This document shows, piece by piece, positions 11,938 to 39,241 of a DNA stretch of 41,199 bases. How positions within the stretch are numbered: the stretch's first letter is position 1; each line of letters starts with the position of its first letter. The notes under the pieces are model-generated. The model was not told the DNA's origin. It saw nothing but the letters and a program-made list of their open reading frames with translations, and searched no databases. Origin of the DNA: Oscillatoriales cyanobacterium CG2_30_44_21 (lineage in GTDB: Bacteria; Cyanobacteriota; Cyanobacteriia; Pseudanabaenales; Pseudanabaenaceae). The stretch lies in the NCBI GenBank assembly GCA_001873375.1, contig MNZA01000207.1, positions 1 through 41,199 on the forward strand, written 5' to 3'. A program made the position numbers and the translations under genes.

Positions 11938-12014
11938 AGATCCCCCTCAATCTCCCTTGTAAAGGGGGAAGCAGAAAATTCTCCCCCCTTTACAAGGGGG
12001 GCTGGGGGGGATCT
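11938..12014. repeat. Palindromic repeat family A (agatccccctcaat...gggggatct), two-arm copy
   Basis: Same ends and core as 17151-17195, 18737-18812 and 35416-35651. Confidence 0.85.
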
Positions 12015-18736: not shown

Positions 18737-18812
18737 GATCCCCCTCAATCCCCCTTAAAAAGGGGGAAGAAGAAAATCCTCCCCCCTTTTTAAGGGGGGC
18801 CGGGAGGGATCT
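18737..18812. repeat. Palindromic repeat family A, two-arm copy
   Basis: gatccccctcaatcccccttaaaaagggggaagaagaaaatcctcccccctttttaaggggggccgggagggatct. Confidence 0.85.
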
Positions 18813-33886: not shown

Positions 33887-34291
33887 ATGGCAATGTTTAA
33901 AATGGGTGAAGTTTCCAAGAAACTAGGACTTAATCCACAAACTTTTTATTTTTACGAGCGCATTGGCTTAATGCCATCACCACAGCGCACTGAGTCAGGC
34001 TATCGTCTATTTAGTCAATGGGATATTGATCGCCTGACGTTTATTACTCGCGCTAAGTCTTTAGGACTAAGCTTGGACGAAATCAAAGAGATTTTAGAAT
34101 TGAAGGAAGGAAAATTGCTGACTTGTCGAGCTGTCTATGAGCGTCTCAATAATAAGGTTAAGGATATTAAAGAGAATATACAGAAATTGCAATCGCTGCA
34201 TGATGAATTAGTACCTTTAGTTGAGCAATGCCAAATTAATCTGGAAAATTCTAATCCTGATTACCAATGTATTGTTCTTGATCCAAAATAG
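33887..34291 (+). CDS. MerR-family heavy-metal-type regulator
   Basis: FKMGEVSKKLGLNPQTFYFYERIGLMPSPQRTESGYRLF; C-terminal cysteines EQCQINLENSNPDYQC. Confidence 0.92.
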   Translation: MAMFKMGEVSKKLGLNPQTFYFYERIGLMPSPQRTESGYRLFSQWDIDRLTFITRAKSLGLSLDEIKEILELKEGKLLTCRAVYERLNNKVKDIKENIQKLQSLHDELVPLVEQCQINLENSNPDYQCIVLDPK

Positions 34292-35310: not shown

Positions 35311-35349
35311 AAAACCCTTGACTCTATATGTGAGTATAGATTTTATAAT
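35311..35349 (+). promoter_or_regulatory. MerR-type promoter M1
   Basis: AAAACCCTTGACTCTATATGTGAGTATAGATTTTATAAT: TTGACT - 20 nt - TATAAT with CTATA-N6-TATAG dyad in the spacer. Confidence 0.8.
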
Positions 35350-35415
35350 TCAGCCATATTCCCCTCTAAGTCTACCGTGTACACAAAAGTTATTAGCTAT
35401 AGCGTGAGTTATTAA

Positions 35416-35651
35416 AGATCCCCCTCAATCCCCCTTAAAAAGGGGGAAGAAGAAAATTCTCCCCCCTTTTTAAGGCATTAATATACTTGACGCATCCCTC
35501 ATCCCCCAACCCCTTCTCCCGCAGGAGAAGGGGAGGAAATTCTTTCTCTTGTACCCCTCTCCTGCGGGAGAGGGGCTAGGGGTGAGGGCAAAGAGTCTTT
35601 TGGTGTGTCAAGTATGTTAACCCCCTTTTTAAGGGGGGCTGGGGGGGATCT
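35416..35651. repeat. Palindromic repeat family A copy interrupted by another element
   Basis: Family A halves at 35416-35475 and 35621-35651 with matching ends. Confidence 0.85.
35476..35620. mobile_element. MITE-like ~145-bp element carrying family B palindrome
   Basis: Terminal inverted repeats TTAATATACTTGACGC / GTGTCAAGTATGTTAA (14/16); flanked by 14-bp direct repeats CCCCCTTTTTAAGG (35462-35475 and 35621-35634). Confidence 0.75.
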
Positions 35652-35734
35652 AAACCTTAAAACGTAGTCAGAGAGACTTGTGTATACACAGTAACTTCTA
35701 AGTGAAGAAAGCATTTCATTAATATTTCTTAAAT

Positions 35735-36712
35735 GTGGTTACTATGATTAATCGGCGCAATTTTCTCTCAGCAGGAGCCGCGATCGCAACTAGTGGTTTT
35801 GTAATGGCGATGCCATCACAGGCTGCGGATGTCCCCAAACAAATACCGACAGGAGCCGTCACCTTCTATGCCGAAATTCGAGTGGCGGAGCCAGAAAATG
35901 CAGCGCTCTTGGCAGATATTCAAAACAAATCTCAATCTCTGCAAAAGGCTACAGGATTCTTGAGTCTGTCGGTCAAACAAATGACAGGGGATTCCACAAT
36001 GGTTAAAAACTATCCAGAATCCTATAAAGGATTGTTAGCAAACGCCTATACTGATGCCGTTAAAGCGGGTTCTCTACCCCGTTTTTATTCTCTATTTGTG
36101 AGATTTGCTGACTATCAAAGTTTGGCACAAGCCAAGGTTGATCAATGGTTTGATCAGGCGATCACCCCACATTTATATGCCTATCGAGTCACCCCAGAGG
36201 GCGCACAAAAAACTGCCCTATTGATGGAATCCTATCGCGGCATTTATCAAACCGTAGTAGCAGGCGATCGCATGGCGATTTATCAAAAACCCGATGACAT
36301 CCTTGCTTTTTTACGCCGTCCTGCCGATCTTCCTAGCCGCAACTACATCACCGTTGAGAATCACGTCATGATTCAAGATCAGAAGTTGCAAGGCTTTGAA
36401 ACAATTACCGCCAAACTATTAGGCATCGCGCAGCAGACTTATCAGCCCACCGATGCAAATGATGGCATAGGTATCGCAGGAGCCGCCGACAATCGCTATT
36501 ACCGTAAAGCCATCAGCACCGAAATTTTGCGTAATGCTTTCCCTGATGGTGATTTGCGAGCCTACCTGATGCATGGTGTATGGGAATCGGTATGGGATCA
36601 CGAAAATTCTCACCTCGATCCTCGCTTTAAGCAAACTGCGGCTCCCGTTGGCGCGATGGTAGTGAGTGGCCCCGTTGAGCCGTTCTACGAAACGCGGATT
36701 GTTTTGCTTTAA
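35735..36712 (+). CDS. Tat-exported protein of unknown function
   Basis: Twin-arginine signal INRRNFLSAGAAIATSGFVMAMPSQA followed by about 295 aa with no recognised family. Confidence 0.75.
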   Translation: MVTMINRRNFLSAGAAIATSGFVMAMPSQAADVPKQIPTGAVTFYAEIRVAEPENAALLADIQNKSQSLQKATGFLSLSVKQMTGDSTMVKNYPESYKGLLANAYTDAVKAGSLPRFYSLFVRFADYQSLAQAKVDQWFDQAITPHLYAYRVTPEGAQKTALLMESYRGIYQTVVAGDRMAIYQKPDDILAFLRRPADLPSRNYITVENHVMIQDQKLQGFETITAKLLGIAQQTYQPTDANDGIGIAGAADNRYYRKAISTEILRNAFPDGDLRAYLMHGVWESVWDHENSHLDPRFKQTAAPVGAMVVSGPVEPFYETRIVLL

Positions 36713-36740: not shown

Positions 36741-36780
36741 GAACCCTTGACTCTATATGTGAGTATAGATGTTAACGTCT
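36741..36780 (+). promoter_or_regulatory. MerR-type promoter M2
   Basis: GAACCCTTGACTCTATATGTGAGTATAGATGTTAACGT, 30 bp upstream of the FmdE-like ATG; -10 less canonical. Confidence 0.75.
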
Positions 36781-36809: not shown

Positions 36810-37433
36810 ATGATTGATCAAGAATTGTTAGAATTTGGACAAAAGTTCCATGGACATAAATGCCCAGCGATGCCTTTGGGCTTGAGAGTCGGGGCTGCTG
36901 CCATGCAAGCCCTCGGCGTAGACCGCGCCAAAGATGGGCAGTTGATGGCGATGGTGGAACTTGGTGATAATCACTGTGCAACTTGCTTTGCGGATGGCAT
37001 TCAGGTAATTACAGGTTGCACCTTCGGTAAAGGCAATATCCAGAAACAGCAGTTGGGTAAGTGGGGCGTGACCCTGATCGATAAAAAAGCAGGTCGGGCG
37101 GTGCGGGTAACTCCCAAAGCCGAAGCCATGAAAGCCAACAAGGAAACCACTTTCTTCAAGGACTATCGAGAAGTGGGCATACCTGCTTCGCAAGTGCCTG
37201 ATGAATTTGTCGATCCGTTGATCGAGAAGGTATCTAATGCTCCTGATGCCATGCTGTTGAGCATTGGTGAAGTCTATGAATATCAATGGCAAGAACCTAC
37301 CCATTGTTTTGCCACATTTGTATGCGATCGCTGTGGTGAAATGACGGTCGAACCCTACAGCCAACGCATCAAAGGTCAGCACGTTTGTCTGCCATGCAGC
37401 GAAACGATGCAACTTGAAAATATGCACAAGTAA
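36810..37433 (+). CDS. FmdE-like domain protein with C-terminal zinc-ribbon
   Basis: FHGHKCPAMPLGLRVGAAAM, DNHCATCFADGIQVITGCTFGKGNI; C-terminal CDRCGEM...CLPC. Confidence 0.85.
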   Translation: MIDQELLEFGQKFHGHKCPAMPLGLRVGAAAMQALGVDRAKDGQLMAMVELGDNHCATCFADGIQVITGCTFGKGNIQKQQLGKWGVTLIDKKAGRAVRVTPKAEAMKANKETTFFKDYREVGIPASQVPDEFVDPLIEKVSNAPDAMLLSIGEVYEYQWQEPTHCFATFVCDRCGEMTVEPYSQRIKGQHVCLPCSETMQLENMHK

Positions 37434-38730: not shown

Positions 38731-38767
38731 AACCCTTGACTCTATATGTAGGTATAGATTTTATAAT
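38731..38767 (+). promoter_or_regulatory. MerR-type promoter M3
   Basis: AACCCTTGACTCTATATGTAGGTATAGATTTTATAAT: TTGACT - 20 nt - TATAAT, 45 bp upstream of the DUF442 ATG. Confidence 0.8.
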
Positions 38768-38812: not shown

Positions 38813-39241
38813 ATGTTTCAGACCATCACCCCCAACCTTGCGATCGGTTCTATTTCTCAGCCCGAAGATTTACAGGGAGTTGCTGAACAAGGCTACAAGA
38901 CTATTATCGATCTATGTACTTCGGCTGAGTGCAATCAGCTTGATGCAACCATGGTGCAAGGACTCGCTTTAAAATATGTGAATGTGCCAATTTCACCCAA
39001 AAACTTAAACCTAGAAACCCTTGACACCTTCAAGAAAGCCCTAGAATCTTCACCCCAACCCACCTATGTGCGTTGCGCTTCGGCATTACGAGCCGGTGTA
39101 TTCAGCCTGTTGGTACTGGCGAGTGAAGAAGGTTGGACAGAAGCACAATATTTGGAGAATTTTCAAAGTCTAGGCATTAACCAGAAGTCAGACTGTCCCC
39201 TTAGCGCTTTTGCCCATAGCTACTTTGAGCAGAAAGTTTAA
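38813..39241 (+). CDS. DUF442/beta-lactamase-hydrolase-like phosphatase-fold protein
   Basis: ITPNLAIGSISQPEDLQGVAEQGYKTIIDLC...VRCASALRAGVFSLL. Confidence 0.8.
   Translation: MFQTITPNLAIGSISQPEDLQGVAEQGYKTIIDLCTSAECNQLDATMVQGLALKYVNVPISPKNLNLETLDTFKKALESSPQPTYVRCASALRAGVFSLLVLASEEGWTEAQYLENFQSLGINQKSDCPLSAFAHSYFEQKV

Follow-up and report, generated by a model that had tools for sequence, protein, structure and literature searches.

The analysed window is a stretch of 41,199 nucleotides (contig MNZA01000207.1) from Oscillatoriales cyanobacterium CG2_30_44_21, whose source assembly is a 3.5-Mb draft in 272 contigs with 99.97% completeness. Between a MerR-type promoter, M1, and a gene for a protein with ABM-like and CT0912-like domains, two MITEs lie one inside the other (Table 1). 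The inner element, assigned to the IS1595 type, splits a family A palindrome, and this palindrome in turn forms the core of an outer element of IS4 type.

Table 1. Features of the nested MITE locus and of the neighbouring promoters and genes
Feature	Position	Strand	Remarks
MerR-family regulator gene	33887..34291	+	Pfam MerR_1 E=7.8e-18, MerR-DNA-bind 2.6e-18
Promoter M1, MerR-type	35318..35349	+	TTGACT, 20-bp spacer, TATAAT; near-identical copies at 36747, 38736
Outer element, left target duplication CCTCTAAGT	35363..35371	+	8/9 match to right copy
Outer MITE, IS4-type	35372..35694	+	CTACCGTGTACACACAAGT-like TIR, family A core; 164 bp without inner insert; relatives L238, L239
Family A palindrome, split by inner MITE	35416..35651	+	
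Inner MITE, left 8-bp target duplication CTTTTTAA	35466..35473	+	
Inner MITE, IS1595-type, 151 bp	35474..35624	+	about 46 two-ended family elements; TIR-sharing elements with IS1595 transposase
Inner MITE, left TIR	35474..35493	+	
Family B palindrome, two inverted hairpins (inner MITE core)	35496..35588	+	relatives stand alone at many loci (for L010, 89/99 identical)
Inner MITE, right TIR	35605..35624	-	
Inner MITE, right 8-bp target duplication CTTTTTAA	35625..35632	+	
Outer element, right target duplication CTTCTAAGT	35695..35703	+	
Downstream gene, ABM-like / CT0912-like domains	35735..36712	+	PF22087 E=4.8e-61, PF21931 4.4e-37; TAT-like signal by eye
Downstream gene start	GTG 35735 or ATG 35744		
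Sibling promoter of FmdE-domain gene at 36810	36747..36778	+	63 nt from -35 to ATG
Sibling promoter of gene at 38813	38736..38767	+	77 nt from -35 to ATG

The promoter that a sequence-only reading of this DNA had placed upstream of the insert is sound, and it belongs to a set of three near-identical promoters of MerR type: M1 (TTGACTCTATATGTGAGTATAGATTTTATAAT, with its 20-bp spacer) is repeated almost unchanged in front of two further genes, where shuffled sequences gave an expectation of 0 by chance. Promoters controlled by MerR proteins typically have a spacer of 19–20 bp. The sigma-70 scan, which allowed spacers of 16–18 bp, overlooked M1 for this reason. The MerR-family gene at 33887–34291 probably regulates all three promoters, a link that we infer. 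Together with them it would make up a putative small regulon, a probable arrangement spanning genes between 33887 and 40541. Apart from the gene for the CT0912-like protein, the set comprises one for an FmdE-domain protein, with a chromate transporter gene behind it, and one for a BLH-phosphatase-like protein, behind which comes the gene of an ArsP-type permease.

The proposed insertion of a MITE into a family A palindrome is borne out, with both the boundaries and the length of the duplication corrected. Related copies define a 20-bp TIR (GGCRTTMAYATAYTTGACRC), over which the TIRs of the inner MITE match at 16 of 20 positions (14 of 16 over the shorter ends described before), and which shifts the limits of the insert from 35476–35620 to 35474–35624. 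The target duplication had been given as 14 bp; its real length is 8 bp, an exact repeat of CTTTTTAA, and family-wide the 8-bp duplication is exact in 25 of the 46 two-ended elements, with not one of them showing an exact repeat of 9 bp. The 14-bp version is made up of this 8-mer and six element-end bases that match by chance (GG at the left end and CCCC at the right). Excision of 159 bp does rebuild the family A palindrome, as had been claimed, and is better split into 151 + 8 than into 145 + 14. Two uninterrupted sites align continuously with the restored one, namely the copy L175 on C166 of the same genome (94% over 114 bp) and L238 (91% over 135 bp); intact family A copies also lie at 18737–18812, at 11939–12014 and elsewhere across the genome. 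The inner MITE is wholly taken up by its TIRs and the palindrome, with no transposase gene, and is well below the limit of about 300 bp for a short element of this kind (lengths in the family range from 132 to 177 bp), and the presence of a family B palindrome within it likewise held.

Further copies with the same TIRs were found, as the transposition reading had anticipated. Three more two-ended copies are present in the same genome (C93, with ATAATTTA twice; C67, also within a family A-type palindrome; and C165) along with several one-ended ones, and there are about 46 two-ended elements in Pseudanabaena. When no more than one mismatch is allowed, the TIR is present in 16 of the 38 genomes searched, while the same pattern read backwards gave 0 matches in all 38; with so many same-TIR copies and no match to the backwards pattern, the structure is not due to chance. 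Perfect 8-mers occurred in 1.8% of the mismatched flank pairs that served as a control, and the A+T content of the family duplications is 88%. No direct orthologous empty site was obtained for the nest, as its downstream gene lacks an orthologue in 25 other Pseudanabaena genomes. At another locus of the genus, L149, the MITE is absent in other genomes, and the intergenic region there is too rearranged for a clean empty site.

A matching transposase, of the IS1595 family, occurs in elements with the same TIRs. In Pseudanabaena sp. UWO311, these TIRs and perfect 8-bp duplications bound elements of 4683 and 7219 bp, and the same holds for elements of 2.1–2.5 kb in Gemmatimonadetes, Chloroflexi, Nitrospira and Acidicapsa records; TIR-sharing elements thus lie in UWO311 and in four other phyla. 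Their transposase has Zn_ribbon_IS1595 and DDE_Tnp_IS1595 domains. The UWO311 element carries GGCGTTAATATACTTGACACACC at either end and an IS1595 transposase (NF033547, E=9e-55), the copy in the 7.2-kb element being broken. The inner MITE has only about 21 terminal bases in common with the UWO311 element (19/21), so its descent from a known autonomous copy would be putative, and its core is a palindrome found elsewhere. Within the genus, a close IS1595 transposase was seen in UWO311 only; none was found in the genome of the window, which holds a contig-edge fragment of another IS1595 type, so either the window copy is an orphan or its partner has been lost or is missing from the assembly. The two UWO311 elements (L135, 525–5207, 4.7 kb; L136, 485–7703) also carry passenger genes, which encode a P63C-domain protein, a HATPase protein weakly similar to type II restriction models and a SocA/Panacea antitoxin-like protein. 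DUF3800 passenger genes adjoin IS1595 transposases in elements of different phyla (L073, 2538–4640; L102, 3271–5790).

These data bear on whether the nest might have arisen by recombination or template switching between A and B palindromes, the TIRs being part of a repeat mosaic. GC-rich palindromes recombine easily, and an exchange of cores between shells is apparent in the genus, for example at L149/L234 (described below). However, precise 8-bp duplications at more than half of the copies and uninterrupted paralogous sites speak for insertion and against recombination, as does the finding that identical TIRs and 8-bp duplications bound transposase-bearing elements. The duplications already largely refute a recombinational origin, which we consider very improbable.

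The family A repeat indeed hosts the insert, as had been read from the sequence, but it is not the outermost layer: a second MITE, at 35372–35694, had been missed. This outer element has the TIRs of an IS4-family element and a duplication within the range of about 9–12 bp that goes with an IS4-type MITE; CCTCTAAGT and CTTCTAAGT are 9 bp long with one mismatch, and the duplications of its relatives measure 9–11 bp. The outer TIR CTACCGTGTACACACAAGT is frequent across the genus, and full-length relatives are identical at 144 of 159 (L238) and 136 of 163 (L239) positions. An IS4-family transposase gene lies between outer-type TIRs at UWO311 L310 (NF033590, E=6e-112); a search of the genome of the window for an IS4 transposase of this kind found none. 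At L238 and L239 the outer-type element sits within IS1595-type MITE sequence, the reverse of the order in the window, and hence the two families nest both ways. The IS4-type MITE is also often located at the tip of a family B-like CCCTCTCCC..GGGAGAGG hairpin (L306, L311, L312 and, in the same genome, L184 on C263), which suggests that it targets hairpin tips.

The choice of target by the IS1595-type elements was assessed on 35 insertions with a duplication matching at no fewer than 6 of 8 positions, each counted once. Their insertion sites share a consensus of a C-rich stretch, eight A/T positions and a G-rich stretch. Flanks with at least three C of four on the left and at least three G of four on the right accompany 16 of the 35 insertions and 0.26% of window positions (p about 2e-32). 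The family A core, recognised by at most two mismatches to CCCCCTTTTTAAGGGGG or CCCCCTTAAAAAGGGGG, was struck by nine of the 35 (26%), compared with 0.23% of positions in the window and 0.28% in the fetched loci of the genus. The preference persists outside family A, where the flanks are 50% C and 51% G versus 22%. Family A is a near-ideal landing site and a hot target, given the preference of the elements for an AT-rich 8-mer between a C-rich 5' flank and a G-rich 3' flank.

In our judgement, the segment 35474–35624 is with high probability a non-autonomous IS1595-family MITE that was set by transposition into the family A palindrome at the core of a presumably older IS4-type MITE. It would have been moved in trans by an IS1595 transposase that the genome no longer has, and an 8-bp staggered cut at the AT centre of the family A hairpin would have led to the duplication of CTTTTTAA. 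At that time, if the presumed order of insertions is right, the hairpin would already have been the core of the IS4-type MITE between the MerR-type promoter and its gene. Mobilisation may now be past, or the transposase may have been lost or not assembled.

Across the genus, alignment of the elements revealed one IS1595-type TIR shell with two palindromic cores, A-like in about 30 and B in about 16 of the 46 when assigned by motif (L122 is counted as A by motif yet aligns as B). The A-like core and family A share 75% identity across about 60 bp, which exceeds the shuffled controls. Both cores are found outside the IS1595-type shell as well, and family B also occurs within at least two other inverted-repeat shells (L008, L011 and L219, with ACTGATGTTAC.. 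and AGAACTTACGCA..). L149 and L234 are orthologous loci of two species whose flanks are 82–83% identical on both sides. They hold an apparently orthologous insertion, its left TIR identical and its decayed duplication shared, but one core is A-like and the other B. Replacement of the core in place is the simplest reading of this pair; two independent insertions at one site are a possible alternative. The pair L122/L123 was considered as a second orthologue with swapped cores, but its junction flanks differ, and the two were taken as separate insertions. Hairpin cores could thus be modules interchangeable among several MITE families, with shells that nest mutually and with recombination or conversion substituting one core for another in situ, a tentative view to which we give somewhat less than even weight.

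M1 now lies 417 nt from GTG 35735; without the outer element and one duplication, it would lie 85 nt from this codon and 94 nt from ATG 35744. The 5' leader would be longer by about 330 nt and is predicted to form a single very stable hairpin, with a folding energy of -175 kcal/mol with the inner MITE versus -88 without it; this may affect the downstream gene. Compatible with an origin by transposition is the idea that the insertion is a regulatory module, an attenuator or leader hairpin under M1 that selection has favoured through its influence on the gene. Its position between a MerR-type promoter and a gene, the predicted leader fold, and the terminator-like hairpin with a T-run on either strand of family A all point that way. 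In contrast, the sibling promoters manage without the nest, the element is scattered across many loci, and the terminator scan returned 3 against 1.0 expected; we regard selection for such a role as unlikely. As it stands, two presumably successive insertions widened one promoter–gene gap of a MerR-type set, and its two siblings are built-in controls.

The insertion of a MITE is an ordinary kind of event, well supported here, and the type of element is already known. What is informative is the anatomy of the locus, with its two MITE families, hairpin-targeted insertion and apparently modular cores. The origin and spread of cyanobacterial palindromic repeats have so far been poorly explained; such repeats may spread as MITE cores while also being preferred landing sites of other MITEs. 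Searches of the literature for MITEs of Pseudanabaena and for palindromic cores in nested arrangement yielded no relevant work.

The IS1595 family of insertion sequences was reportedly treated by Siguier and colleagues in 2009. The present elements resemble this family in their TIRs starting with GG and, as described in an excerpt of the ISApl4 paper, in their A/T-rich 8-bp duplications; the C-rich/G-rich flank preference measured here was not found reported in that excerpt (PMC12561309). Further likenesses are the DDE_Tnp_IS1595 transposase of the TIR-sharing elements and the passenger genes in some of them, whereas the window element is without transposase. Nezha, a cyanobacterial MITE said to have been described by Zhou and colleagues in 2008, is likewise short and non-coding, with TIRs and a target duplication; the present elements differ in holding large palindromic cores, the likeness and the distinction both being drawn from descriptions. 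Very small mobile repeats of cyanobacteria, reportedly the subject of work by Elhai and colleagues in 2008, are similar by general type only. Families A and B resemble these repeats and REP-type palindromes (PMC3733652) in being short, palindromic and intergenic, and differ from them in that the palindromes studied here sit inside the TIR shells of transposons.
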